64,000 nt of DNA, from assembly GCF_009834915.1 (NCBI RefSeq), contig NZ_WVHS01000003.1, positions 186,001 through 250,000 of the forward strand. The letters run 5' to 3'. Each line of letters begins with the position of its first letter. The stretch's first letter is position 1. Shown here one piece after another: positions 10,422 through 24,562 of the stretch. The DNA is from Hufsiella ginkgonis (GTDB lineage Bacteria; Bacteroidota; Bacteroidia; Sphingobacteriales; Sphingobacteriaceae). The position numbers and the translations under genes were made by a program. The notes under the pieces were generated by a model that ran no database searches, had not been told where the DNA came from, and was given only the letters and a program-made list of their open reading frames with translations.

Positions 10422-11120
10422 TTAATTTTTAAGGAGCTTCGTTATTTCCTTATCGCTCAGCACGCGGAATTTTACGTTTAAGCGCTCCACAGGACGGTCG
10501 GCGGGGCCGGTTTTTACGGCAGCAAGCTTGTCGATCACCCCGATTCCGGAGATCACTTCACCAAAAACCGTATAGTCCTGGTCGAGTGCGGGAGTACCGC
10601 CAACAGTTTTATAGACTTCCCGCTGGCGGGCGCTGAAGTGGAAATTTTTGCCTTTCCGGTGCTCGATGCGGTCGAGCTCGGAATCGGTACATACCCGCCC
10701 CTGTACAAAATAGTATTGACCGGTGAAGGATGTTTTCCCCGGGTTATCATCGCGGCCGGCCGCAAAGGCGCCTTTTTTATGGAAGAGCAACGTGTCGAGC
10801 TCCGGCATCAGCCTGGGGAAGGCGTCTGGGCCTTTGGCTTTTTCCTGTGCTGCATAGGCCGAATCGGTTTCACCACCCTGGATCACGAAGTTCTTTACCA
10901 CACGGTTCATGTCGAAGCGGTTAAAATAACCCGACCTGGCCAGCTTAACGAAATTATCACGGTGGCGTGGAGTTTCCTTATACAGGCGGATAACCATATT
11001 GCCATGAGTAGTCTCCGCCAGCACGTAGGCATCTTTTGATTTTTGGCCGGAATCGGCAGCGCCGGAGAACGAGAAGAGATAAAAACCGGTTAGGATGAGG
11101 AAGATTTTGGTGTTGAACAT
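10422..11120 (-). CDS. Secreted cyclophilin-type peptidyl-prolyl isomerase
   Basis: A 232-residue protein with an N-terminal signal sequence (MFNTKIFLILTGFYLFSFSG). The cyclophilin fold follows, visible as GNMVIRLYKETPRHRDNF, the RVVKNFVIQGGE core and DYTVFGEVISGIGVIDKL. Bacterial cyclophilins catalyse proline cis-trans isomerisation, here in the periplasm. Insertions around 95-165 relative to small cyclophilins are typical of Bacteroidota forms. It is 29 bases downstream of the SpmAB fusion gene and likely on its transcript. Confidence 0.93.
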   Translation of the reverse strand: MFNTKIFLILTGFYLFSFSGAADSGQKSKDAYVLAETTHGNMVIRLYKETPRHRDNFVKLARSGYFNRFDMNRVVKNFVIQGGETDSAYAAQEKAKGPDAFPRLMPELDTLLFHKKGAFAAGRDDNPGKTSFTGQYYFVQGRVCTDSELDRIEHRKGKNFHFSARQREVYKTVGGTPALDQDYTVFGEVISGIGVIDKLAAVKTGPADRPVERLNVKFRVLSDKEITKLLKN

Positions 11121-11149
11121 TGCAGACGATATTTAATGATCCAAATTCC

Positions 11150-12382
11150 CTAACCAAAAAATGCGTACCCGATGATGATCGCGGCAACCAATCCCACCAG
11201 GTCGGCTATTAACCCGCAGGCGGCGGCATACCTGGAGTTCTTAATATTGACCGATCCAAAATAAACAGCCAGCACATAGAACGTGGTTTCCGTAGATCCC
11301 TGTATAATGCAGGCCAGCCTTCCCTGGAAAGAATCGGGACCATATTGTTTCATGATATCGATCATCAGGCCGCGGGCGCCGCTGCCGCTAAGGGATTTCA
11401 TAATGCCCACCGGTAAAACGGGAACGAAGCGCGTATCAAGCCCGCAGGCTGCCGCTAACGTACCGATACCGTTTACCACGTAATCCATACAGCCCGTGGT
11501 CCTGAACACGCTGATCGCTACCAGGATACCCACCAGGTAGGGGATGATCATCACCGAAGTTTGAAAACCCTCTTTGGCGCCCTCGATAAATGTTTCGTAA
11601 ACATTGATCTTCTTCACCATTCCGTACACAATAAAAAGTGCGATGACGGAAAATATCACCAATCCGCCCAGTAACCCCGTTACCAGTTCGATCTCCTTCG
11701 GAGAACGGTCCCCCAGCCAAAGGTACAGCCCGCCCATCATGCCGATAAATAAACCGAAGAACACCATGACCGGTAGTTTAAATAAATTAATGCGTTGATA
11801 AAGGGATACGGCGATCATTCCCGACAGGAAGGAAATGAACGTACCGATGATGGAAGGGATAAAGATATCGGCCGGGTTGGCGGCCCCGGCAACCAGCCGT
11901 ATGGCGATCACCGAGGTAGGGATCAATGTAAGCCCTGCCGTATTCAGCACCAGGAACATGATCTGCGCATTAGTGGCGGTATCCTTATCGGGGTTCAGCT
12001 CCTGGAGCTGTTTCATGGCTTTAAGCCCCACGGGGGTGGCGGCGTTGTCAAGTCCCAGCATGTTTGCCGAAAAGTTCATGATCACCGATCCGTTTGCCGG
12101 GTGGTCTTTCGGTACGCCCGGGAAAAGCTTGCTGAAAAACGGCCCCACTCCTTTGGCGAACAGGGCGATCATCCCGGCCCGTTCCCCCACGCGCATGATC
12201 CCCAGCCAGAAGGTCATGATCCCGGCAAGTCCGATCGAGATCTCCGCACCTGTTTTCGTGCTTTCGAACATGTTCTTCATCACCTCGGTAAAGATCTCGG
12301 TGTCGCCGAACACGATCAGCCTGACCAGCGCAACGATAAATGCAACAAGGAAGAAAGCGATCCAGATGTAGTTTAGGGCCAT
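11150..12382 (-). CDS. SpmA-SpmB fused nucleoside-recognition (Gate) membrane protein
   Basis: A 410-residue integral membrane protein with about ten hydrophobic segments. The N-terminal half matches SpmA (GLAGIMTFWLGIMRVGERAG and the FSANMLGLDNAATPVG segment). The C-terminal half matches SpmB (FQTSVMIIPYLVGILVAISVF and SGSGARGLMIDIM). The two are separate spore-maturation genes in Firmicutes, while the fused form is usual in Bacteroidota that do not sporulate. A transport or membrane-gate role is inferred from the family; the substrate is unknown. It lies between the M14 peptidase and cyclophilin genes on the same strand. Confidence 0.9.
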   Translation of the reverse strand: MALNYIWIAFFLVAFIVALVRLIVFGDTEIFTEVMKNMFESTKTGAEISIGLAGIMTFWLGIMRVGERAGMIALFAKGVGPFFSKLFPGVPKDHPANGSVIMNFSANMLGLDNAATPVGLKAMKQLQELNPDKDTATNAQIMFLVLNTAGLTLIPTSVIAIRLVAGAANPADIFIPSIIGTFISFLSGMIAVSLYQRINLFKLPVMVFFGLFIGMMGGLYLWLGDRSPKEIELVTGLLGGLVIFSVIALFIVYGMVKKINVYETFIEGAKEGFQTSVMIIPYLVGILVAISVFRTTGCMDYVVNGIGTLAAACGLDTRFVPVLPVGIMKSLSGSGARGLMIDIMKQYGPDSFQGRLACIIQGSTETTFYVLAVYFGSVNIKNSRYAAACGLIADLVGLVAAIIIGYAFFG

Positions 12383-12383
12383 A

Positions 12384-12420
12384 GGACGTTTGACGTTTAA
12401 CGCAACACGTTCGACGTATT
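12384..12420. repeat. ACGT-type short repeats (family B)
   Basis: About five tightly spaced units (GGACGTTTGACGTTTAACGC, then AACACGTTCGACGTATT) occupy most of the 53-base spacer between the M14 peptidase and SpmAB genes, both transcribed leftward. They may separate two transcription units. Confidence 0.6.
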
Positions 12421-12435
12421 ATGCGATTCGTGTGA

Positions 12436-13665
12436 TTAGTTGGTTAATCTACCAGTTTTTACCGTAATCCTGCCGTTTTCGATGGATAAAATTGTTTCAT
12501 TTCCCTCCTGGAGGATGAGATCTGCAGGTTCCTGAAGTTTTGGGGGACGGATTGGGATGAAGGTCAGGCCGGTTGCGTCGACGGTTTCGTAACCGGCGTA
12601 GCCGGAGAGGTCGCCGATATCTTCTACGCGGTACAGGAGACCTGGGAATTTGCCAGGTTCGGCGAAATCGAGTTCGGCCACCAGGCCCAGGTCTGCGCGG
12701 TACCAGGCATTTTCCGCATCAATGCGGCAGTTTTTTAGCAGCAGGCTCACGTGCAGCGGTTTATTCGGAACAATGGTAAAGTAATTCTCCAACGGTTCCG
12801 CGGTATATGAACGGGTGGCAATGGCATGTAAAGCGGATATAAAGGCGGTAAAGATCAGCTTGCGGCTTACCTGCCGTTCCGGGTCGTTGACGAGACCGCC
12901 TGATTCTACAAGAATGGTTTTGGTGCCCAGTGACTGGAAATTGTCGCCAAATGCGCGCGGTTCGTAAGTATCGTCGAAACGTCCGATATGTCCCGGAAGC
13001 AATTGCTGCAACGTGGCATTCATCACGCTGCAAACCTGCATCGCTTCCTTCCTGCCGGGGGTAAGAGATGCCGGTTCGTCGGCCGCAGGCGCCAGCAACG
13101 AGACGGTGGCAGGATTCCCGCTGTTACCGGCAGACCAGCGGATGCTCTGGTCGTGCAGGTTAAACCCGAAATGTGGTTCGATCATGTCGCGCACCGACCG
13201 CAGCAGCCTCCCTTCCGGCGATTGTTGTGCATGGAAATCGCGGTTGACATCGATCTGCTGGTAATTGCGGCGGGTAAACGCACCGGCGCCATCGGGGTTT
13301 ACCATGGGCACCAGGTAAAGGGTACAGTTTTCCAGGATACTTTCGCGTATATCGCCAAACGCATCGGAGCCCGCGAACAAGAAGTTCAGCAGGTCAAAAA
13401 GCGCCATGGTGCCCGTAGGCTCGTCGCCATGCATCTGGCTCCAGAACAGCACTTTTACCGGCCCGGTACCCGTCTTTACAAGAGATACGGATTTGCCCAG
13501 GCATGAGTGACCGATTTCGCTGATCTTAACTTCGGGCTCATGCTTCCATTTTTTGAGCAGGGTAAGAATTTCCGTGTGTTTAAAAAAACGATCGTAGAGG
13601 CTTGCTTCGCGGTAGCGCGGATGCATTTCAGAAAGCGTTACAAAAATATCCCGGCCCGTTTCCAT
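12436..13665 (-). CDS. M14-family zinc carboxypeptidase
   Basis: A 409-residue metallopeptidase. The zinc ligands are H79 and E82 (SQMHGDEPTGT) and H171 (FNLHDQ), with the substrate-carboxylate N141-R142 pair (DVNRDF) and a catalytic glutamate near 257 (TILVESGG). There is no signal peptide, so a cytoplasmic role such as peptide or murein-peptide trimming is possible. The C-terminal 130 residues form an extra beta-rich region outside the catalytic fold. It follows folC by 16 bases and appears to be part of the long minus-strand run. Confidence 0.9.
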   Translation of the reverse strand: METGRDIFVTLSEMHPRYREASLYDRFFKHTEILTLLKKWKHEPEVKISEIGHSCLGKSVSLVKTGTGPVKVLFWSQMHGDEPTGTMALFDLLNFLFAGSDAFGDIRESILENCTLYLVPMVNPDGAGAFTRRNYQQIDVNRDFHAQQSPEGRLLRSVRDMIEPHFGFNLHDQSIRWSAGNSGNPATVSLLAPAADEPASLTPGRKEAMQVCSVMNATLQQLLPGHIGRFDDTYEPRAFGDNFQSLGTKTILVESGGLVNDPERQVSRKLIFTAFISALHAIATRSYTAEPLENYFTIVPNKPLHVSLLLKNCRIDAENAWYRADLGLVAELDFAEPGKFPGLLYRVEDIGDLSGYAGYETVDATGLTFIPIRPPKLQEPADLILQEGNETILSIENGRITVKTGRLTN

Positions 13666-13681
13666 ACCTGTATGGGTTTTG

Positions 13682-14989
13682 TTAAATTACTTCGGCAACT
13701 ACAAATGTACTACCGCCGATAAAGACCAGGTCGGCCGCCGACGCATTTTTCCGGGCAGCCTCCAGCGCTTCCCGCACGGTTGGGTATATGTCGCCCGTTA
13801 ATCCGAACGCCCCTGCTTCGCCGGCGAGCTCTTCCGCAGGTTTGCCGCGTTCTATTGCCGGCTGGCAGAAATAATACCTTCCCTCTTTAGGAAGAAGGGA
13901 GAGCATCGCGCTTATGTCTTTATCTTTAACCATGCCTATTACCAGGTGAAGGTGCTGGTAAGGGGTAGCCTCCAGGTTTTTCACCACTTCGCGGATCCCG
14001 TCTTTATTGTGACCGGTATCGCAGATAATAAGCGGGGAGTGACTGAGTGTTTGCCAACGCCCGGCGAGCCCCGTTAGCGTGCTAACTTCTTTTAATGCCG
14101 CACGAAGGTGTTCGCCGGTAATGTGAAATCCCTGCCGCCGAAGCTCCGCCACGGCGGATAGCACTGTCGTGAGGTTCTTCTCCTGGTAAGAGCCCGTGAG
14201 ATCGAGTTGTAAAGGCGATGGAAAATCATACGCGGATGATGGCTTACCATTTAACCGATACTTGATATCGATGTCCAGGTATTTCCCGCGGCCGCGGATG
14301 GCGGTTTCCCAAAGATCACTCCCGAATACCAGGGTGGAACCGGTACCGGATGCTTTTGACAGGAACACCTGCGCGGTTTCCTCCTGTTTTTCGCCGATTA
14401 CCACGGGGATGCCAGGTTTAATAATCCCAGCTTTTTCGCCGGCGATTTCCCCGAGCGTATTCCCCAGCATGTTCATGTGATCATAGCTGATATTGGTGAT
14501 CACGGACAGGAGCGGGGTAATGATATTGGTTGAATCGAGCCTGCCGCCGAGGCCTACCTCAATGATGGCGATGTCGGTTTCTTGCTGCGCGAAATGATCA
14601 AAGGCCATTGCCACCGTCGCCTCGAAAAAGGAAGGCGCTATTTCTTCGATCGACGCTTTTTGAGCGTGCACGAACGCAACCACATCCTCCTGGGAGATCA
14701 TTTCCCCGTTTATACGGATCCTTTCCCGGAAATCAAGCAGGTGCGGGGACGTATATAAACCGGTTTTGTAGCCGGCCGTTTGCAGTATGGCAGCCAGCAT
14801 GTGCGAAGTGGAGCCCTTGCCATTGGTGCCGCCAACGTGGATGGTCCTGAATTTTTTGTGCGGATCACCCAGCCTGCGGCAGAGCTCGATGGTGTTGGTA
14901 AGGTCCTTTTTGAAGGCAGCCGCGCCTATGCGGGTAAACATGGGAAGCTTGGCATACAGGTAGTCCAATGTTTCGGCGTAGGTCATCAT
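13682..14989 (-). CDS. folC: Bifunctional dihydrofolate/folylpolyglutamate synthase
   Basis: A 435-residue Mur-ligase-like enzyme adding glutamate to dihydropteroate and folates, with ATP. The P-loop (GGTNGKGSTSH, about residues 53-63), the FTSPHLLDFRERI-like segment (here LYTSPHLLDF), the SYDHMNMLG segment and GTDTGHNKDG-like C-terminal block (CDTGHNKDG) are all clear. The second Met of the MM start may be used. It directly follows the TonB-like gene with a 23-base gap, a placement that ties this housekeeping gene to the envelope cluster. Confidence 0.95.
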   Translation of the reverse strand: MMTYAETLDYLYAKLPMFTRIGAAAFKKDLTNTIELCRRLGDPHKKFRTIHVGGTNGKGSTSHMLAAILQTAGYKTGLYTSPHLLDFRERIRINGEMISQEDVVAFVHAQKASIEEIAPSFFEATVAMAFDHFAQQETDIAIIEVGLGGRLDSTNIITPLLSVITNISYDHMNMLGNTLGEIAGEKAGIIKPGIPVVIGEKQEETAQVFLSKASGTGSTLVFGSDLWETAIRGRGKYLDIDIKYRLNGKPSSAYDFPSPLQLDLTGSYQEKNLTTVLSAVAELRRQGFHITGEHLRAALKEVSTLTGLAGRWQTLSHSPLIICDTGHNKDGIREVVKNLEATPYQHLHLVIGMVKDKDISAMLSLLPKEGRYYFCQPAIERGKPAEELAGEAGAFGLTGDIYPTVREALEAARKNASAADLVFIGGSTFVVAEVI

Positions 14990-15012
14990 GAAATGTAGGA
15001 AGAAAAACCCTA

Positions 15013-15825
15013 TTATTTTACCCTGAAGACGAAGCGTTTTACACCGATCTGTTCATCGGCGGCTTCGTCCGTGCTGTTCATGCTGGCATTGAGCATCGCG
15101 TTGATGCATTTATTCTGGAGGGTAAGGTCGGAGATGGTAGTACCTTTCGTAACCTGGGCGGTGGTTATTCTCCCTGATTTGCTTACCCGGTACCTGATCA
15201 CGATGATACCGGTGATCTGCCCGTCGTCTTCGATTTTGGGATAGTTCACAAACGATCTCCCGGGCGGGGCTTTTTCGCCATTGCCCGATCCGCCGCCGTT
15301 GTAGTTATCAGAAAGCGGGTCGCCGTTAACGCTTCCCTGGTTGCCGGGCGTGGTGGTAGTGCCGTCGCCGCGGCCGGTAGCGCCATTCCTGGGACCTTTA
15401 TACAGCGCATTCTGATTTACAGTTGGTGTTTTAGTTTCCTTTTCGGGCGTGGTCACCGGTGGTTTTACCGATTTCTTTTCACTGGTTTTTACTTCCGGGG
15501 CGTCTTCGATATCCTGGGTGGCCACCGATTTCTCGTTGGTCTCCGGGGTGTTTTCTTTTACCGGTGTTTCGTTCGGCAGTACTTTGTCGGGCACTTTGTT
15601 ATTGGCATTCGGGTCCTGCGAAGCCTCTTCCATGCTATTCAGGTCGTCGCCCATCCCGGCATCGGTGGTACCGTAATTCATGATGATCCCGCCGGTACCT
15701 ACTTCAGGCACGGGCGAGCTGATCAGCCAGAAAAAGCTAAGCAACAAAAAAGCGCCCATCAGGACCGCCGAGATCACGATGGCTTTCGGGTAATTATTCT
15801 CTTCGCGGTAGCTGATGGTTGTCAT
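15013..15825 (-). CDS. TonB-like energy transducer
   Basis: A 270-residue protein with one N-terminal membrane anchor (about 15-36), a long low-complexity linker rich in Pro, Thr, Glu and Gly (about 45-195) and a C-terminal TonB/TolA-type fold (about 200-270; FVNYPKIEDDGQITG, VIRYRVSKSGRI, KGTTISDLTLQNK). It lacks the usual YP motif in its anchor-distal start. It overlaps exbD by 4 bases. With ExbB and ExbD it should couple the proton gradient to an envelope partner. The adjacent barrel protein is the obvious candidate, but this is inference. Confidence 0.9.
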   Translation of the reverse strand: MTTISYREENNYPKAIVISAVLMGAFLLLSFFWLISSPVPEVGTGGIIMNYGTTDAGMGDDLNSMEEASQDPNANNKVPDKVLPNETPVKENTPETNEKSVATQDIEDAPEVKTSEKKSVKPPVTTPEKETKTPTVNQNALYKGPRNGATGRGDGTTTTPGNQGSVNGDPLSDNYNGGGSGNGEKAPPGRSFVNYPKIEDDGQITGIIVIRYRVSKSGRITTAQVTKGTTISDLTLQNKCINAMLNASMNSTDEAADEQIGVKRFVFRVK

Positions 15826-16220
15826 TTTTTGCTTTCAGTAGCTAAAACGAGTTTTACCTGTAATTTGTTGGCTATATCGGTAATATCGACCAGGTTCTGT
15901 ACCGTGGTGCTTTTGTCGGCTGATAAGATGATTGTCATGTCAGGAGAAGCTTTCTGGTACGACTCGATCACGGCGAACAGCTGGTCGAAGGCCACTTCCT
16001 TATTTTCAACGCTGTATTTCAGGTCTTCTGATATGGATACGTTAATTTTTTTCGTGGGGATGCTTTGCCCGGAACTCGACCTGGGCAGCAACAGTTTCAC
16101 CACGTTGGGGTTTACTACCGCCGATGCCAGGAGGAAGAACAGCAGCAGGAAGAACATGATATCGTTCAGTGCCGAAGTATGTACTTCTACATGGCCGCGG
16201 TGTCGTTTTTTTAGATTCAT
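15822..16220 (-). CDS. ExbD/TolR-family biopolymer transport protein
   Basis: 132 residues with a short cytoplasmic start, one membrane helix (about 18-40; LNDIMFFLLLFFLLASAVV) and a periplasmic domain. The conserved membrane aspartate D20 sits at the start of the helix, as in the proton-conducting ExbD/TolR/MotB group. Overlaps of 4 bases with both exbB and tonB indicate translational coupling. Confidence 0.93.
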   Translation of the reverse strand: MNLKKRHRGHVEVHTSALNDIMFFLLLFFLLASAVVNPNVVKLLLPRSSSGQSIPTKKINVSISEDLKYSVENKEVAFDQLFAVIESYQKASPDMTIILSADKSTTVQNLVDITDIANKLQVKLVLATESKK

Positions 16221-16912
16221 TTTCCGGGTTCTTCTAAAAGATCAATAAACTCGATGGCATCGGTTTCCATGCGGAGGATAATGCGGTCGACCATGATATT
16301 CAGGATGTGGTACAGTACATAAGATACGATACCCACGATAAGGCCTGCCGCCGAAGTGATCATTTTGGTGTACAAGCCGCCTGAAACGGTACCGATCTCG
16401 ATCAGTCCCTTGATGGATACGTCATGGAAAATGGTGATCACCCCGATGATCGTTCCTACGAATCCCAGCATGGGTGCGATCCCGGCTATAATTCCCAGGA
16501 TACTGATGTTTTTTTCGAGTTTCGATACCTCGAGCTTACCGACGTTTTCGATAGCCGCTTCAATGTCTTTGATCGGGCGGCCGATGCGAAGGAGTCCTTT
16601 TTGCAGCATCCGGCCTAACGGGGTGTTGCTGTTCCGGCAGATGGCGATAGCCGCGTCGAGTTTTCCCGAAAGAATACTTTGCTTAACCTGGAGCATGAGG
16701 TTCGACTCATCGCGCGAAGCCTTGCGGATAGTGAGGTACCGTTCAATAAATATCACCAGGCCGATAAAAGCGATCAACGCGATGGGAAGCATCACCCAGC
16801 CGCCTTTCATCAGGAGGTCGATAAAACGGAGGTCCTGTTCCGCTGGTGCGATCTGCGTAGCGGCGGTATGGGTGGTATCTGTTAAAGGCGTGTCAATAAG
16901 TAAGAAGAGCAT
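16217..16912 (-). CDS. MotA/TolQ/ExbB-family proton channel protein
   Basis: 231 residues with three membrane segments (about 36-58, 135-157 and 178-205). The family core is visible in the LGIIAGIAPMLGFVGTIIG and GLYTKMITSAAGLIVGI segments. Forms the ion channel with ExbD. It starts 3 bases after the HU/SPOR gene ends, so the motor genes belong to the same transcription unit as the envelope proteins upstream. Confidence 0.95.
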   Translation of the reverse strand: MLFLLIDTPLTDTTHTAATQIAPAEQDLRFIDLLMKGGWVMLPIALIAFIGLVIFIERYLTIRKASRDESNLMLQVKQSILSGKLDAAIAICRNSNTPLGRMLQKGLLRIGRPIKDIEAAIENVGKLEVSKLEKNISILGIIAGIAPMLGFVGTIIGVITIFHDVSIKGLIEIGTVSGGLYTKMITSAAGLIVGIVSYVLYHILNIMVDRIILRMETDAIEFIDLLEEPGK

Positions 16913-16915
16913 AGA

Positions 16916-18151
16916 TTATTTTATAGGTGTTTTAATAAGCATTACCCGCGCGGCCGTGTCTACCCCGGCTTTCACTTTGGCCAGATTTTTTAAGGCGTCT
17001 CCCAACGTTTTGTAGGAACCGGCACTCACAAAGAGCCATTTCGGGCTGGTAATCATAAAGAGCTTTATGTTGGAATTCCGTTTTAGGCTGATATATTCCT
17101 GCACTTTCTTTTCTGTATGAAAGGAGGCCAGGATGATCTGGAAACTTGCGCTGTCGGCTGCCGCGGCCGTATCAGCAGCAGCTGCCGCCTGGTTTGCGCG
17201 GAAGACGCTGTCGTTCCTCAGCGAGTCTGCCTGTGTTAACGAATCAGGCAAGATCGGGGACGGCGTCGTTTTAATGGAAGCGATCGTTTTGCTGTTATCT
17301 TTAGGCTCTTCCTCTGCTTTCGGTACCATCAGGTAAAGGATTGCAGACAATATGCCGATCGCGATCACCGCTGCTGCGGCTATCCATATCCACCTGTCGC
17401 TGGGAGAGTCTTCATCGTCGGCATCTCCCGTTGGTTTCGTAAGCTGGCTGATAAAGCCGCCTCCGCGCGAGCTGTCGCGGAGCACGATCTTGTCGAATAG
17501 TACCGAATCGTCGCCACCTGCACTAACAGCCGCAATTTCAGGTTCCGGATGTTTGATTTCTGCGGCTGGCTGTACCGGTTCCCCCGCATCGTTATCACGA
17601 TAGGATGTGCCGGCAATCTCCGGCTCGGGATCGTTTGCCGTTTCCGTTTCCGGCGCTTCGCTGATATTTTCGGGTGTAGGCGGTTCGGTTGACTTTTCAG
17701 CCGGCGGCAGGGGGGCCGTTGGCAACGCCGGCGGTATTTCTTCTGACTTGCCAGGTTCAGTAACAGGGACCAACCCGAAACTGGACATTAATTGATTTTC
17801 TTCCGACAGGTCGAGGTAAATCCCGCCGTCTTTTTTGCGAAGGGTACCGACCGGTAATAAACCAGCTTCCCCGTTCCCGTTGAGCTGCCTGTTAAGGTCG
17901 TCGCCGAATTTAGCGGCAAAGAAATCGGCCGACGCTTCAGAAATATGTTTGGTTTTACTGATGTGCCGGCTCAACAGCGCATCCGCGTTTTCTCTTTGGG
18001 TAAAGGCAAAGGTTTCCCCGGGAGGGAGAAAGGACTGTGTATTTTCGTCGAACGAGGCGGCTACCTTCTTTTTATAGATCGTGCCGAAACCGGGAATAGT
18101 CACTTCATCATGATCTTCCAGTATTTCAGCGATGTATAGGGCGATGTCCAT
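16916..18151 (-). CDS. HU-CCDC81-like membrane protein with periplasmic SPOR domain
   Basis: A 411-residue single-pass protein. The N-terminal 125 residues look like tandem HU-CCDC81-type domains (ILEDHDEVTIPGFGTIYKK at about 10-28; GLLPVGTLRKKDGGIYLDL at 97-115). Then come an acidic Pro-rich linker (130-250), one membrane helix (254-276), an Ala/Ser/Asp-rich linker and a C-terminal SPOR domain (334-408). SPOR domains bind glycan strands stripped of peptides, typically at division septa. The HU-like part would be cytoplasmic. The protein therefore could link cytoplasm, membrane and cell wall. It is 3 bases upstream of exbB. Confidence 0.88.
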   Translation of the reverse strand: MDIALYIAEILEDHDEVTIPGFGTIYKKKVAASFDENTQSFLPPGETFAFTQRENADALLSRHISKTKHISEASADFFAAKFGDDLNRQLNGNGEAGLLPVGTLRKKDGGIYLDLSEENQLMSSFGLVPVTEPGKSEEIPPALPTAPLPPAEKSTEPPTPENISEAPETETANDPEPEIAGTSYRDNDAGEPVQPAAEIKHPEPEIAAVSAGGDDSVLFDKIVLRDSSRGGGFISQLTKPTGDADDEDSPSDRWIWIAAAAVIAIGILSAILYLMVPKAEEEPKDNSKTIASIKTTPSPILPDSLTQADSLRNDSVFRANQAAAAADTAAAADSASFQIILASFHTEKKVQEYISLKRNSNIKLFMITSPKWLFVSAGSYKTLGDALKNLAKVKAGVDTAARVMLIKTPIK

Positions 18152-18193
18152 CCGGGTAAAATTAGCCTTTAATTCCTATTCAGCCAAAACGGT

Positions 18194-19870
18194 TCAGAAA
18201 GAATAATTCAAACCGCCGAAGATGGTTGTGCCGATAGAGGGATAATACAGGTATCGCTGGTAGTTGGTTCCGAAGATATTATTGACACGAAGGAACAGTC
18301 CTACCTTCTCGCGGAAGAAATATTCGGCGCCGGCGCTCAGGTCGGTATAGCTTTTTACGGATACAATCTTATCGTTAAACGGTGCGACCGTTTCGCGCGT
18401 GAGCGCTTTGGAATCGCCACGAAGCGATACCTCTCCGTCTATGGTCAGCTTTTTATTGATGACCAAGTGTACGTTCGACAGAAATTCGAGCCCCGGCTTA
18501 AACCATGCTTGTTTTTGCACGCTGGTATTGTAATCTGTGGCGATAAATTTCCCCGTCCAGTTAAACATGCCGCCGGTTTTTACGCTGATCTCGCCTTCGA
18601 GGCCGATCACTTCGGTTTTGCTGTCATATACTACGTCGAATTTCTGCGCTTTCGTAAAATTATTCACAAAGAGCGGCATGTCTTCAATGGTTTTAAAGGA
18701 GGCGGAGGCTTTATAGCCAAATCCCGATCCCGCATTTCCCTTCACGCCGCCGTAGATGTTCGATTTTTCCAGCGCATTTTTGATAAGGATGTTTTCGTTG
18801 ATGAACATGTTTTCGTTGCTGAGGTTTAGCAGCGTCGTTTTTTGCACATCACCGGTATAACCGCCAAACAAGGTGGCAAACCCGGGCACGATCTCAAAAG
18901 AGGCCGTTACGGCAGGCAGGAGGCTAGTGCGCGAGGTTTGTCCAAATTCCTGTACTACGTTTAGTCCTACGGTAAGGTCGTAGTTCTTTCCCTGCAGCTT
19001 AACAAATGGATTCGCCCGCAGGATGTTGTTTGATATCCTGTAAGAGGAATCTTTAGTGCCTGTAAAATCGAGCGCAGCGGTAGCGCCAAGGTGGAACCGG
19101 CTGAATCCCTTGCTTACAGATCCGCTTACCAGGAATGCGTTTTCGCGCGCTTTAAATGCGTTTCTTAACAGGTAAGCATTTGTTTTAACCGCGTAGCCGA
19201 GGTTGCTGCCGGTTTCTTCATAGCGTTCCAGCACTTCCCCGTTCAGGGTAAGCGTGCTGTAGGTTTGCTTTTGGATGTTGACAGGAGCGGTGGTAATTTC
19301 AGGGTTATATCCGTAGAAATTGGTCGACTTCCGGTCAAACCGCACATCACCTCCAAGTGTCATTTTATCCTGGATGCTTCGCCCAAACGCGCCAAATTGT
19401 TGTTGCGAGTACTTTTGGCCCGCCTGGTCGCCGGCTTGGTTGAGGTGTTTGCCGAATATACCAGCCTGGAGCGCCTCGTCCTTGCCAGTTGCAAAATAGA
19501 GCTCCCCGAGCCCGGTGTTACCGTTGCCCGCGCCGGCTTTTATGTAGTTATTTTTCAGGATCGTCTCCTTAATATCGGCGAGCTCCTGTGCCTGCAGCTT
19601 CCGGATATCGGTGTTAAGTTCCAGTTTCTTGTCGAGGATCTCGTAACTGAGATTAGGCTTGAAGGGCTTGTTCTCGTCGAGGTCAGGACTTCTGCGTATC
19701 TTTACCGCATCTGCAAGTACCGGTTTATAGGCTCGTTCTACCACGATCTCTTCGGTAGTAACTATTTTCTCGGGTTGTTTTGCCGGTTGACCCTGGGCCA
19801 GCGATAAGGACGCGTAAGCTGCCAGGGCAGCGGTCATGCCGTATTTTAAATAACCAGGTGTTTTCTTCAT
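18194..19870 (-). CDS. Outer-membrane beta-barrel protein (TonB-receptor-like, no clear plug)
   Basis: 558 residues with a signal peptide (about 1-25). A short conserved-looking N-terminal region (TTEEIVVERAYKPVLADAV) is followed by about 450 residues of alternating amphipathic strands ending in an aromatic C-terminus (GTTIFGGLNYSF), typical of a BAM-inserted barrel. Unlike TonB-dependent receptors it lacks a complete plug domain, though the EEIVVERAYKPV start resembles a TonB-box region. It lies between the TPR gene (3 bases) and the HU/SPOR gene. It is the likely outer-membrane partner of the TonB-like protein encoded downstream. Confidence 0.85.
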   Translation of the reverse strand: MKKTPGYLKYGMTAALAAYASLSLAQGQPAKQPEKIVTTEEIVVERAYKPVLADAVKIRRSPDLDENKPFKPNLSYEILDKKLELNTDIRKLQAQELADIKETILKNNYIKAGAGNGNTGLGELYFATGKDEALQAGIFGKHLNQAGDQAGQKYSQQQFGAFGRSIQDKMTLGGDVRFDRKSTNFYGYNPEITTAPVNIQKQTYSTLTLNGEVLERYEETGSNLGYAVKTNAYLLRNAFKARENAFLVSGSVSKGFSRFHLGATAALDFTGTKDSSYRISNNILRANPFVKLQGKNYDLTVGLNVVQEFGQTSRTSLLPAVTASFEIVPGFATLFGGYTGDVQKTTLLNLSNENMFINENILIKNALEKSNIYGGVKGNAGSGFGYKASASFKTIEDMPLFVNNFTKAQKFDVVYDSKTEVIGLEGEISVKTGGMFNWTGKFIATDYNTSVQKQAWFKPGLEFLSNVHLVINKKLTIDGEVSLRGDSKALTRETVAPFNDKIVSVKSYTDLSAGAEYFFREKVGLFLRVNNIFGTNYQRYLYYPSIGTTIFGGLNYSF

Positions 19871-19873
19871 CCG

Positions 19874-22800
19874 TTAGTTCTTTTTGTTCAGACTTTCCAG
19901 TTTCGCCTTTGCCGATGGCAGGATATCGTCGTCGCCTTTATAACCTTCAATAATGCTCTTTAATGTTTCTTTCGCCTGGAAAAGGTTTTTCTGTCCTACA
20001 TATACGTCCGCCAGCAGCACATAGCTTTTTGCCACCCAGTAATCATAGGAGAACAGCTTGCTGGTAAGCTCAAAGATGGTGGCTTCTGCCGCTTTGTAGT
20101 TACCTTTCAGGTACTGGATCTCGGCGACGTTGTATTTTGCTTCGGCTGCCGAGATGGTCTGCGCCTGCGTAACCACCTCCTGGAACTGGCGGAGGGCGAC
20201 GGTGGTGTCCCCTTTCATCAGGTAAGCTTTCCCGCCGAAGAGCATGGCACGGTATTTTTCTTCTTTGGAGGATTTTTCGAACTTGTCGACCAGGGCTACA
20301 TATTTAAGTACGTCATCCGGCATCTGCATATTACTGTAAGCCTCGAGCAGGTTGTTGATGGCAAAACCGTAATTCGCCTTGTACTCGGCCGTGAGCTCCA
20401 GTTTTTTCAGGTAAACCACCGCTTCGTTATATTTTTTCTGCTTCAGGTAAAGGTTAATGATGCTGATCAGTGAGCGTTCGGTGTATTCGCTGGTCCAGTC
20501 GTTCAGGATAAAAGTGTAATCGGGAACGGCTTCATCTGGCCGGTTAAGCTTTACCAGGCTTTCCGCCCGGATAAATTTAGCCTGTTTTTCGTGGATGGGC
20601 CGTGAGAACTTATCGAAATAAGCATTTACAGCCTCGAAAGTTCCCTGGAAATCACCTCGCTGGTACCTGTTGTAAGCGGCCTGGAAGGTAATGTTATCCT
20701 GCTCGGAAGTGGTGAGATTACCGATGTTGGTACTGTTCGCATAGGTGAGAAAACCGTCGGAATCTCCCTTATCGAGGTAAATGTTTTTGATCGATTCGAG
20801 CGCCTGTTTGGCTTCGTCGGCCGTGGAATATTCCGAAACCACCCGTTGAAAGGTAGTTAGTGCGCCCGCATCGTCGTCCTGGTTGTACTGTACCAGCCCG
20901 ATGGTTACCAACGCCCGCGGGGCATAGCTGCTGCGGGGGTATTTTTCCAGCATCGCGGTCAGCCCGGCTTTCGCTTTAGCGTAGTCATTGGTTACGAAAT
21001 AGGTATAAGCGATCTCGAAATCCGCATCATCCGCATAGTTCGAGCCGGGGTATTGTTTGAGTAACGACTGGAGGGTAGCGATTTTCTCGGCATTTTGCTG
21101 CTGCAGCCCAAAGATCATCCCGCGCTGGAAGAGCGCATAGTCTTCGCCGCTTGCCCGCCAGGCGATGATCTTATTATACTGTTCCATGGCATCACCATAG
21201 TTCCTGTTTACGAAATATGAATCCGCCAGGCGGAGGGTGGCGTCGTTAAGGGTGTTTTTATCCTGTTCCCCGCCCCTGATGAAGCGCTCGAAGTAGGTTG
21301 CCGCCTTTGCATATTTATCATTTTGGAAAGCGGAATAGCCGATGGCGTAGTTAGCGTAATTGTACACATCGGTTTTCTTCGCAGCCGGCAATGCAAGGAA
21401 TTTCTCGAACTGGACAACAGATTCGCCGTATTTTCTCACTTCGAACATGGCTTCGGCGAGCCAGTAGGTGGCAAGCGCTTCGATCTCTTTGTCGATGCCG
21501 TTAGCAGCCGACCGCATCAGCATGGATATCGCGTTTTCGAAAGCACGTTCGTTGTAAAACTCCAGACCGCGGAAATAAGTCACTTTCTGGTAAGCCAGCC
21601 TGGCGTCCTGGTTTTTGTTAGTAATAGACTCCAGCACGATCACCGCTTCCTTATAATTCTTGGTAGTGAGCAATACTTCCGCCAGCAGGGTTTTGGCCTC
21701 GTTGGTCCGGGCAGATTTGGGGTACGTTTTGAGGAAAAGCTGGATCGCGTCTAAGGCAACGGAGTGGAATTCAAGCTCGTATGAGAGTTTCGCGTAGTTA
21801 AAGAGTCCTTCTTCCTGTAAAGCGGCATCGAAGGTGAGCTTTGATGCCCGGAAAAAGGCGTTGCGGGCGCCCTGTTTATTGCCGGTCTTAAGAAACGAGT
21901 TGCCGAGCGTAATCATGGCGTGCTGGTAATAAGCGTCGGCCACGGTCATTTTTTCGAGTTCGGTAACCGCCTTGGCGTAGGCGGCATTTTTAAAAGCGGT
22001 ATACCCGATCTGGTAACTATCCTGGTTATTCTGTGTTTTCCCGAGGTCTTTGTCCTGGAAGCGTTGATAGTAAATTCCCGCGTTCTTATAATCAGACCGG
22101 GCAAAATAGGAAGCACCGATGATGCGGTTCATTTCGGGCTTATACTGGTCGTCGATGGTAGCGGTGGCGGGAATGGTGTACCGGAGTACGTCATCATACC
22201 TCTTATCAAGGAAGTAAAGGGCCGAAATATAGTAGGGATAGCTCTTTTCGTAGGTTTTTGATCCTTTTAGCCGTTCGAATTCGCGGAGGGCGGTTTTGTA
22301 ATCGGCATCCGCATAATTGAGGTAAGCGTAATAGTATATGGAAGGTTCCGCAAATTCGCTTTTGCCGTCTTTAAGGGAAGCGAATAATGGCTCCGCTTTT
22401 ACGTAATCTTTCGAGAAGAAGTAAGAATAGCCCAATTTAAACCGGTATTCTTCGCTTTCTTTGGAGGAGAGGTTCTGTGGCTCGATCTTTTTAAACCATT
22501 CGATGGTTTTCGGGTAGTTCTTTTGTTTAAAATAAAACCTGCCGACCTGGTAATAGGCCGAACGTGCGTTGGCGCTTACCGGGTGGTCGTTAATAAACTT
22601 CAGGAAGAGCTTTTCCGCATCGTCATTCCCAAGCTCGAGGGCACAAACGGCCCTGTAAAACTCCGCGTTTTCCTTTAAGAGCGAAAACTGGCGCTGGTCA
22701 CCGCTGCCGTCCGAGGGGAACATCCGCGACTCGTCAACACGGCTGAACTGCGCGGATGCGGCGGCAAATTTGCCTTTTTCGAAAAGCTCGAGGCCTGTCT

Positions 22801-22900
22801 TGTATGCTTTATCCACCTCGAACCAGGATGTTTGCTGGGATTTGGCCGTAACACCAAGCAGGCATAATAAAAAGGTGAGGCGTATATAGGGTTTCAGCAT
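19874..22900 (-). CDS. Large periplasmic TPR repeat protein
   Basis: 1008 residues, signal peptide (about 1-21), then an almost continuous array of tetratricopeptide-type helical pairs. Repeats are recognisable from recurring segments such as AYYQVGRFYFKQKNYPKTIE, YFARSDYKNAGIYYQRF and KGNYKAAEATIFELTSK. Such arrays are protein-binding scaffolds. It is first in the cluster, and the barrel gene starts 3 bases later. A possible -7 element (TAATTTTG on the minus strand, 22923-22930) lies 22 bases upstream, without a clear -33 box. The division and envelope genes that follow suggest a scaffold for an envelope machine. Confidence 0.92.
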   Translation of the reverse strand: MLKPYIRLTFLLCLLGVTAKSQQTSWFEVDKAYKTGLELFEKGKFAAASAQFSRVDESRMFPSDGSGDQRQFSLLKENAEFYRAVCALELGNDDAEKLFLKFINDHPVSANARSAYYQVGRFYFKQKNYPKTIEWFKKIEPQNLSSKESEEYRFKLGYSYFFSKDYVKAEPLFASLKDGKSEFAEPSIYYYAYLNYADADYKTALREFERLKGSKTYEKSYPYYISALYFLDKRYDDVLRYTIPATATIDDQYKPEMNRIIGASYFARSDYKNAGIYYQRFQDKDLGKTQNNQDSYQIGYTAFKNAAYAKAVTELEKMTVADAYYQHAMITLGNSFLKTGNKQGARNAFFRASKLTFDAALQEEGLFNYAKLSYELEFHSVALDAIQLFLKTYPKSARTNEAKTLLAEVLLTTKNYKEAVIVLESITNKNQDARLAYQKVTYFRGLEFYNERAFENAISMLMRSAANGIDKEIEALATYWLAEAMFEVRKYGESVVQFEKFLALPAAKKTDVYNYANYAIGYSAFQNDKYAKAATYFERFIRGGEQDKNTLNDATLRLADSYFVNRNYGDAMEQYNKIIAWRASGEDYALFQRGMIFGLQQQNAEKIATLQSLLKQYPGSNYADDADFEIAYTYFVTNDYAKAKAGLTAMLEKYPRSSYAPRALVTIGLVQYNQDDDAGALTTFQRVVSEYSTADEAKQALESIKNIYLDKGDSDGFLTYANSTNIGNLTTSEQDNITFQAAYNRYQRGDFQGTFEAVNAYFDKFSRPIHEKQAKFIRAESLVKLNRPDEAVPDYTFILNDWTSEYTERSLISIINLYLKQKKYNEAVVYLKKLELTAEYKANYGFAINNLLEAYSNMQMPDDVLKYVALVDKFEKSSKEEKYRAMLFGGKAYLMKGDTTVALRQFQEVVTQAQTISAAEAKYNVAEIQYLKGNYKAAEATIFELTSKLFSYDYWVAKSYVLLADVYVGQKNLFQAKETLKSIIEGYKGDDDILPSAKAKLESLNKKN

Positions 22901-23028: not shown

Positions 23029-23046
23029 GATTAGAAAAATCTAATC
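23029..23046 (-). terminator. Possible weak terminator after pyrB
   Basis: A 6-bp hairpin (GATTAG / CTAATC with a 6-base loop) overlaps the pyrB stop codon and is followed on the minus strand by TTTT. The stem is short and AT-rich, so activity is doubtful. Confidence 0.3.
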
Positions 23047-23973
23047 CCGCTGGCTTGCCAGCAGGTATAATACCGCCATCCGGATAGCCACCCCGTTTTC
23101 CACCTGGTCGAGAATGACCGACTGTTTACTGTCGGCCACATCGCTGGTGATCTCCACTCCGCGGTTCACCGGGCCCGGGTGCATAATGGTGATCTCTTTG
23201 TCGAGCGAATCAAGGATTTTTTTGTTTAACCCATATAGCATGGTGTATTCCCGCAGCGTGGGGAAGTACTTGATATCCTGCCGTTCCAGCTGTATACGGA
23301 GCATATTGGCTACATCGCACCAGTTGAGTGCTTTCCGGAGATCGTACTCAGTTTTTACGCCAAGGGTATGAATGTATTTGGGGATGAGTGTCGGCGGCCC
23401 GCAAACCATCACCTCGGCGCCCAGTTTATGAAGGCAGAGAATATTGGAGAGCGCTACACGGGAGTGAAGGATGTCACCAATGATAGCCACCTTTTTGCCT
23501 GCCACGTCGCCGTAGCGTTCGCGGATCGAGTAGGCGTCGAGCAACGCCTGGGTAGGATGCTCATGTGCACCGTCGCCCGCATTCACGATCTGCGCATTAA
23601 TATGCCTGCTCAGGAATATGCCCGCCCCGGGATAAGGATGCCGCATAACCACCATATCCACTTTCATGGCCAGGATGTTGTTCACGGTATCGATCAGCGT
23701 TTCTCCCTTACTCACAGAAGAAGAGGATGCCGCAAAATTCACCACATCTGCGGAGAGGCGTTTCTGGGCAAGCTCGAAAGACAGGCGGGTGCGGGTAGAA
23801 TTTTCGAAAAAGATGTTGGCAATGGTAATATCACGAAGCGAAGGCACTTTTTTAATTACCGGGCTGTTCAGCACATCTTTAAATCGGTCGGCGGCGTTAA
23901 AAATGAGGCCGATGTCAGATTCCCGGAGATCTTTTATGCCTAGTAGGTGTTTGGTGCTTAACTTTTCTGCCAT
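23041..23973 (-). CDS. pyrB: Aspartate carbamoyltransferase catalytic subunit
   Basis: A 310-residue enzyme of pyrimidine synthesis, joining carbamoyl phosphate and aspartate. The carbamoyl-phosphate loop FFENSTRTRLSFE (about 53-65), GDGAHEHPTQALLD and the C-terminal MHPGPVNRGVEI motif are all present. No regulatory subunit gene (pyrI) is adjacent. It follows pyrR by 14 bases. Confidence 0.96.
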   Translation of the reverse strand: MAEKLSTKHLLGIKDLRESDIGLIFNAADRFKDVLNSPVIKKVPSLRDITIANIFFENSTRTRLSFELAQKRLSADVVNFAASSSSVSKGETLIDTVNNILAMKVDMVVMRHPYPGAGIFLSRHINAQIVNAGDGAHEHPTQALLDAYSIRERYGDVAGKKVAIIGDILHSRVALSNILCLHKLGAEVMVCGPPTLIPKYIHTLGVKTEYDLRKALNWCDVANMLRIQLERQDIKYFPTLREYTMLYGLNKKILDSLDKEITIMHPGPVNRGVEITSDVADSKQSVILDQVENGVAIRMAVLYLLASQRD

Positions 23974-23987
23974 TTATATCTCGGGTT

Positions 23988-24527
23988 TTACTCTGATAAC
24001 AAAGTGACTTTATCTTCCTTGTCGGTCTCTTTCCAGCTAACGATCACTTTTTGCGAGTTGATGGTGTCTACCTGTATCCCGATATAATCGGGTTCGATAG
24101 GCAGGTGACGCGCATAACGCCGGTCTACCAGCACCAGCAATTCAACCTTTTCTGGTCTCCCGAACGATTGCAGGGCATCCATCGCAGAGCGGATAGTGCG
24201 CCCGGTCCACAACACGTCGTCGATCAGGATCACGCGTTTGCCTTCAACCGCGAAATCGATCTGGGTGCTGCTTGGAAGGATGAGCCCTTCGCGCCTGCGG
24301 AAATCGTCCCTGAAAAAAGTGATGTCAAGGTCGCCGCAATTGATCCTGGCCGCCGGGAGAATTTTTCGCAACTCTTCCGTGATCCGCCTTGCAAGGAAGA
24401 TTCCCCGGGGCTGAATCCCCAGGATCACGGAATCGGTAAAATTGTCGTGATTTTCAATTAACTGATAGCAAAGACGCTGCAGCGTGACCTGGAACTTTTG
24501 ACCGTCGAGCAGGATTAGGTTTTGCAT
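23988..24527 (-). CDS. pyrR: Bifunctional PyrR (pyrimidine regulator / uracil phosphoribosyltransferase)
   Basis: About 179 residues from the ATG at 24527 (MQNLILLDGQKF); the frame extends to 24545 but those residues are not needed. It is a PRPP-binding fold with the motif VILIDDVLWTGRTIRSAM and an N-terminal IQPRGIFLARRI segment. In Firmicutes PyrR binds nascent pyr mRNA to cause attenuation and also has UPRTase activity. I cannot identify a PyrR RNA site in the short 35-base spacer upstream, so regulation by RNA binding is not supported here. It lies between yidC and pyrB. Confidence 0.93.
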   Translation of the reverse strand: MQNLILLDGQKFQVTLQRLCYQLIENHDNFTDSVILGIQPRGIFLARRITEELRKILPAARINCGDLDITFFRDDFRRREGLILPSSTQIDFAVEGKRVILIDDVLWTGRTIRSAMDALQSFGRPEKVELLVLVDRRYARHLPIEPDYIGIQVDTINSQKVIVSWKETDKEDKVTLLSE

Positions 24528-24562
24528 CAGGGATAAATTGAACAAAAATACAATAAATCAGC

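Follow-up and report, generated by a model that had tools for sequence, protein, structure and literature searches.

A conserved Bacteroidota operon with a plug-less receptor-type barrel, a SPOR protein and a TonB motor, plausibly a counterpart of Tol-Pal

An operon of Bacteroidota encodes a long TPR protein, an outer-membrane barrel of the TonB-receptor type without a plug, an inner-membrane protein with HU-like and SPOR domains, and an ExbB-ExbD-TonB motor. It probably couples the inner membrane, the cell wall and the outer membrane, and is plausibly the Bacteroidota counterpart of Tol-Pal. We tentatively read it as a proton-driven trans-envelope machine by which the outer membrane is drawn in with the wall at constriction, and give this reading a little less than an even chance. 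The operon is a specific candidate for outer-membrane constriction in this phylum, with the barrel present in every genome sampled from the class of the species studied (49/49, among the matches listed). If the reading is true, a TonB system would have a mechanical job, acting on a plug-less barrel of the receptor type. No paper describing this operon was found in the open-licence PMC literature (preprints not included), which is weak evidence of absence.

Layout of the operon

The DNA analysed (the window) is a stretch of 64,000 nt from Hufsiella ginkgonis (assembly GCF_009834915.1, contig NZ_WVHS01000003.1, positions 186,001-250,000); all positions below are relative to it. Between 13682 and 22900 the list of ORFs of the window has seven members, all on the minus strand, in the order TPR, barrel, HU/SPOR, ExbB, ExbD, TonB and FolC, with products of 1008, 558, 411, 231, 132, 270 and 435 aa and gaps of 3, 42, 3, -4, -4 and 23 bases. 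This is exactly the arrangement claimed in a preliminary description of the same DNA. That description had also placed a component in each layer of the envelope, and domain matches, models and the conservation of the unit confirm the parts it named: the plug-less barrel, the HU/TM/SPOR protein, the ExbB-ExbD motor and a TonB-like gene, the last being divergent.

A receptor-type barrel without a plug

The barrel protein (18194-19870, minus strand) had no Pfam match at E 0.1, and its best receptor profile match covered the C-terminal part of the barrel alone (E 4.6e-9, profile positions 415-520). In the structure model (mean pLDDT 72.6) strands occupy residues 109-557 and residues 8-106 have pLDDT under 50; counting strands in the DSSP list gives about 22, in agreement with the 22-strand receptor fold. 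TonB-dependent receptors were the top structural matches (Foldseek, VIA-align), among them BtuB 2guf (Z 21.2, rmsd 3.8, 422 residues aligned) and FhuA (Z 21.2, rmsd 3.2, 434 aligned); the VIA-align comparison re-examined Foldseek's own list, and other folds beyond that list are possible. The Plug model, 107 positions long, gave 69 matches in the H. ginkgonis genome, none of them to this protein, which has about 80 mature residues ahead of the barrel. Given the short tail and the lack of a Plug match, the operon barrel is, on its modelled fold, a receptor-type barrel without a plug, and not an ordinary TonB-dependent receptor.

Within the protein, conservation peaks in the tail. Over 16 loci from the window's family, collected by whole-protein or whole-profile search, the commonest-residue fraction was 0.80 for residues 39-62 (19685-19756, minus strand) vs 0.52 for the barrel, and 20-residue stretches are best conserved where they begin at residues 39-46. 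The set of named loci described below was excluded from this count, since its search patterns sit in the N-terminal motif and would bias it. Strong conservation of residues that are unfolded in the model suggests a linear binding motif. The motif lies at the position of a TonB-box-like stretch of relatives, which reads LPEFVITG and similar in other classes.

We built a TonB-box model from 25 boxes of the plug receptors of H. ginkgonis itself (EVVVVGYG type). At p<0.05 it matched 15 of 81 barrel tails: 14/30 from other classes and 1/51 from the window's class, the window tail giving p = 0.096, which is not significant. Controls at the same threshold were the barrel interior (16/356), TPR (1/71), HU/SPOR (3/54) and TonB proteins (5/45). 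A second model, made from E. coli TonB-box sequences, matched 4/81 tails at p<0.05, the chance level. A TonB box was probably ancestral in the barrel tails; in the window's class it appears to be replaced by a diverged, strongly conserved stretch, a putative TonB contact. It is from the box matches in other classes and the conservation of the tail that we infer contact between TonB and the tail.

The HU-TM-SPOR protein

The third gene (16916-18151, minus strand) encodes an inner-membrane protein with tandem HU-like domains, predicted to be cytoplasmic (residues 1-125; 17777-18151), a hydrophobic helix taken as transmembrane (residues 251-275; 17327-17401) and a SPOR domain, predicted to be periplasmic (residues 335-407; 16931-17149). 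The HU-CCDC81_bac_1 model scored 44.3 bits against a cut-off of 26; HU-CCDC81_bac_2 remained below its own (21.7 vs 35), and Pfam SPOR just below (19.7 vs 21). A six-frame search of the H. ginkgonis genome with SPOR at E 0.001 found nothing. Both the helix and the SPOR-like domain are present in the AlphaFold model (mean pLDDT 72.1). Region 335-407 aligned with the SPOR domain of DedD (Z 8.1, rmsd 2.9, 77 aligned), CwlC (Z 7.9) and RlpA (Z 7.6); these Z values are middling, but three SPOR entries were retrieved. The tandem HU region matched HU entries at Z about 6 and a chain of a sea-urchin doublet, 8snb_1K, at Z 8.2 (rmsd 5.2, 120 aligned).

Of the 54 proteins of this kind taken from the loci, 44 matched SPOR (E 0.01) and 29 the HU-CCDC81 model that is the more frequent. 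Lineages vary, some having TM-SPOR without HU and others HU-TM without SPOR (by eye). Judged by the modelled fold and by these 44 relatives, the third gene of the operon encodes a SPOR-domain protein. The window domain is without the usual early glutamine (by eye), a residue that has a role in SPOR domains.

HU-CCDC81 proteins of Bacteroidetes were reportedly described by Burroughs et al. in 2017; they have the same domain families, and the operon copy differs in sitting with a motor and a plug-less barrel. The length of the protein, about 200-600 aa in most loci, reaches 729 aa in L182 (10640-12826) and 848 aa in L183 (6414-8957); in L184 an ORF of 1006 aa, unlabelled by profile, occupies the HU/SPOR place (10682-13699).

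Motor and force transducer

The two motor subunits exceed their Pfam cut-offs clearly: ExbB (16217-16912, minus strand) with 78.4 bits for MotA_ExbB (cut-off 22.9), and ExbD (15822-16220, minus strand) with 82.7 bits for ExbD (cut-off 25.4). The best NCBIfam model was TolQ for ExbB, at 61.8 bits far below its cut-off of 221, and ExbD for ExbD; the proteins belong to the superfamily and do not reach the TolQ and TolR equivalog cut-offs. T154 of ExbB and the membrane aspartate D20 of ExbD, which we take to be functional positions of the motor, were invariant in 41/41 relatives from the loci. The ExbB/ExbD motor looks complete in its sequence.

The transducer (15013-15825, minus strand) scored below the TonB cut-offs (17.3 vs 24.6 bits; NCBIfam, 19 vs 27.1). 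A relative in locus L072 is over the TonB cut-off and aligns among the relatives of the window protein. By position, topology and alignment the operon's transducer is a divergent TonB, weak by sequence. Matches to Plug were seen in all 20 genomes tested (8 to 26 per genome, among the matches listed), and with plug receptors in every one of them the operon TonB could also serve uptake. We had hoped for a genome with this system and no plug receptors; none of these 20 was of that kind.

The TPR protein and FolC

The TPR protein (19874-22900, minus strand) has a signal peptide without a lipobox (by eye) and YbgF/YfiO-type repeats. It scored 165.9 bits with TIGR02795 tol_pal_ybgF (cut-off 90.1), over seven stretches, and the BamD model was likewise above its cut-off (101.8 vs 81.4). 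With both models over their cut-offs the TPR subtype is unspecific, and its identification with CpoB, which we had considered, was dropped. In one genome (G003, locus L025) two TPR genes of 1010 and 828 aa stand in tandem ahead of the barrel, possibly by local duplication. In two genomes of family f12 (L052 and L055) TPR and barrel are separated by a PhzF-like gene (287 aa, named by eye) and a gene of 127 aa.

FolC (13682-14989, minus strand), a Mur-ligase-family protein by domain match, had been counted as a member of the seven-gene set; it looks like a passenger in the operon. It was directly 3' of the best TonB match in 12 of 20 genomes taken from those of the class in which no motor follows the barrel (counted by eye), and was labelled in 1/30 loci of other classes, so we dropped it as a working part.

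Gene order and descent

Conservation of the gene order had been set beforehand as a test by the preliminary description, and a conserved order was found across the phylum. Loci were chosen by barrel and by family spread, not by neighbours. In the window's family (16 loci including the window) TPR, HU/SPOR and ExbB plus ExbD were present in 16/16 loci and TonB in 14/16, one of the misses falling at a contig end. Families f16-f18 had HU/SPOR and TonB in 6/6 loci and ExbB plus ExbD in 5/6; taken with the window's family, TonB followed the barrel on the same strand in 20/22. The 30 loci of other classes had TPR directly upstream of the barrel in 21, HU/SPOR following in 26, ExbB plus ExbD in 18 and TonB in 24. 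The TPR-barrel overlap was exactly 4 bases in 14 of those 21; TPR was not directly upstream in the other nine, which include all seven loci of family f30. The full gene string was seen in 6/30 loci of other classes, since ExbBD, a TPR gene upstream or an HU/SPOR gene with a label is missing from some of them. A genome of 1.7 Mb (G005, locus L027) has kept the whole order. Such recurrence across the phylum is more than chance.

The preliminary claim needs modifying in one respect, namely that the motor does not always follow the barrel. In the other families of the window's class TPR was directly upstream in 25/29 loci and HU/SPOR next to the barrel in 5/29, and a motor gene (ExbBD, TonB) after the barrel was seen in none of the 29, five of which are cut by a contig end. 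Of the genomes of the class without the motor after the barrel, 28 were searched and 20 of these looked at further; the best TonB match was directly preceded by ExbB-ExbD in 10/20 (by eye).

A separate set of named loci, the best 80 of 222 relatives and Sphingobacteriales-type, had HU/SPOR-ExbB-ExbD-TonB in order after the barrel in 60/80 (strictly adjacent in 56/80; in two of the 60 a contig end truncates the TonB frame). In the remaining 20/80 no motor follows the barrel: in three the sequence ends within about 1.3 kb (L104, L128, L129), in L146 a block of five genes separates the halves, and the rest have other genes. These five genes, on the opposite strand after the barrel and MoxR/VWA-like by eye, were seen in two Pedobacter loci (L146, 11766-19443; L107, 11751-18899), with the HU/SPOR-ExbB half of L146 beyond the block. 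At this junction, different genes stand in additional Pedobacter loci.

Trees of barrel (81 sequences), TPR (70), TonB (45) and ExbB (41) each split the window's class from the other classes exactly; f16-f18 were not recovered in the ExbB tree. The matching splits point to vertical inheritance of the operon proteins from the ancestor of Bacteroidota.

Distribution of the barrel, Pal and TolB

A whole-protein search found the barrel in 21/21 genomes (the genome of H. ginkgonis and relatives). We then sampled the phylum with a broad barrel profile (198 genomes, E 1e-6). Some match was obtained in 183/198 genomes, many being C-terminal matches to long receptor frames; a barrel was therefore called near-full-length if the match started at profile position 25 or before and ended at 536 or later, with E 2.6e-36 or better. 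Among the matches listed, 118/198 genomes had a near-full-length barrel: all 49 of the same class, 69/106 of the rest and 0/43 of family f24, with at most one per genome. The FMO protein was found in 10/10 f24 genomes tested vs 0/7 others, and f24 is on this ground taken as the green sulfur bacteria.

Pal and TolB have the opposite distribution. Among the matches listed, Pal was over the TIGR02802 cut-off in 43/43 green-sulfur genomes and 0/155 others; weaker OmpA-type matches are common, with some Pal-profile match in 194/198 genomes. In the window genome Pal matched 12 times (best E 2.2e-23), each time below the TIGR02802 cut-off. Near-full-length TolB was present in 10/10 green-sulfur genomes tested, nine over the cut-off (among the matches listed); TolB was over the cut-off in none of the 27 other genomes tested; among the matches listed, 26 of them showed partial matches alone, the list leaving out the best match of the 27th, G092 (E 1.0e-11). 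For a full-length TolB propeller the window genome, too, had partial matches alone among the matches listed. This complementarity of Pal/TolB and barrel counts as one phylogenetic event, because it follows a single lineage split. Among the 106 other genomes outside the class, 37 had neither Pal over the cut-off nor a near-full-length barrel (among the matches listed).

Tol-pal is given as present in Chlorobi in a review (PMC7391070), and another paper mentions one survey with no identifiable tol-pal loci in Bacteroidetes (PMC12204202).

A proposed trans-envelope machine

Tol-Pal pulls in the outer membrane at division in other bacteria. The operon resembles Tol-Pal (TolQRAB-Pal-CpoB) in its PMF motor subunits, which belong to one superfamily with those of Tol-Pal, in a trans-periplasmic transducer, in a YbgF/YfiO-type TPR protein and in a presumed connection with the wall during division. 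It differs in that the barrel would receive the pull and in having a SPOR domain instead of an OmpA-type wall binder, plus the HU head; also, Pal and TolB were not over their cut-offs in the non-green-sulfur genomes tested. With no Pal over the cut-off and no full-length TolB among the matches listed, the operon is not a member of Tol-Pal; the same result, obtained where the barrel is present, fits a Tol-Pal-like role. The earlier suggestion of a Tol-Pal-like machine is in this sense partly supported.

In the mechanism that we propose, ExbB and ExbD would drive the operon's own TonB, which would span to the outer membrane and grip the unfolded N-terminal tail of the barrel. There being no plug to pull out, the force would act on the barrel, hence on the outer membrane itself. 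SPOR proteins bind denuded glycan at division septa; by analogy with that family, the HU-TM-SPOR protein may bring the assembly to newly split, denuded wall, and its cytoplasmic HU head could act as a sensor of the nucleoid or of some other partner. The TPR protein, about 1000 residues long, could be stacked beneath the barrel as a periplasmic spacer or hub. The net effect would be an outer membrane pulled inward with the wall during constriction, as by Tol-Pal elsewhere.

A bolder form of this proposal appears doubtful to us: that the operon, inherited from the ancestor of the phylum, encodes a third kind of PMF force transducer replacing Tol-Pal. In it TonB would pull the plug-less barrel and with it the outer membrane, SPOR would aim the machine at the septum and the nucleoid would be read by the HU head, which would tie outer-membrane constriction to wall splitting and to the position of the chromosome.

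PorE, proposed as an outer membrane-wall tether of Bacteroidetes (PMC12204202), is alike in being a proposed answer to the missing tol-pal of these bacteria. It is unlike the operon in that it is a lipoprotein, parts of which resemble CpoB, TolB and Pal.

Other readings of the operon

The preliminary description had also held that nutrient uptake is not the purpose of this protein set. A mechanical role does fit better, and the claim has to leave room for export. The main rival is an energised exporter, which would use the plug-less barrel as an open pore, with the TPR protein guiding a polymer or surface lipoprotein and the TonB motor gating or driving transport. TPR-barrel pairs act in polysaccharide export, and here no part is as constant as the TPR-barrel pair, with TPR directly upstream in 25/29 of the loci in which no motor follows. 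In L072 the second gene upstream of the barrel is LolA-like (below curated cut-offs), and ORFs of similar size occur in further f30 loci. We nevertheless consider an exporter rather unlikely: no synthase, substrate or signal-peptidase gene recurs among the annotated part of the neighbours, and the constant SPOR protein would be unexpected.

The separation of barrel and motor in 29/29 loci of the class's other families (five contig-cut) could instead mean that two independent modules lie side by side, a TPR-barrel pair with a housekeeping task at the outer membrane and an ExbBD-TonB motor of general use for many receptors. So could the ExbB-ExbD pair directly before TonB elsewhere in half of such genomes, the 20/80 named loci without a following motor (three from sequence ends) and the 69 Plug matches of H. 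ginkgonis, which need a TonB. The joint order with overlapping genes recurs, however, in many families of other classes, and the proteins share vertical descent, which makes us regard two modules as unlikely.

That the barrel is simply a nutrient receptor served by a TonB system of its own is very improbable: the barrel fold is nearest to BtuB and FhuA, but there is no plug, a SPOR protein is a partner, and near-full-length matches number at most one per genome and occur in all genomes of the class (among the matches listed). The favoured reading, a machine acting on the outer membrane, shares with TonB-ExbB-ExbD and BtuB/FhuA the motor, the transducer, the barrel fold and, in other classes, the TonB-box-like tail; unlike those systems it has a barrel without a plug, a single one beside the 69 Plug matches of the H. 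ginkgonis genome, and dedicated TPR and SPOR partners.

Genes flanking the operon

In family f30 (locus L072), FtsK-like, LolA-like and flippase-like genes (below curated cut-offs) lie upstream of the barrel (10825-14991); ORFs of similar size stand before the barrel in L076, L078, L079, L195 and L197. In the window, folC is followed on the same strand by genes for an M14-type peptidase and a 410-aa membrane protein (11150-13665; gaps of 16 and 53 bases); for neither did a profile search of 60 loci turn up a relative. Directly upstream of the operon lie pyrB and pyrR (23041-24545). PyrR-pyrB were labelled before the TPR gene in 69/80 named loci (best 80 of 222 relatives); this is an old linkage, probably without a functional tie to the operon.
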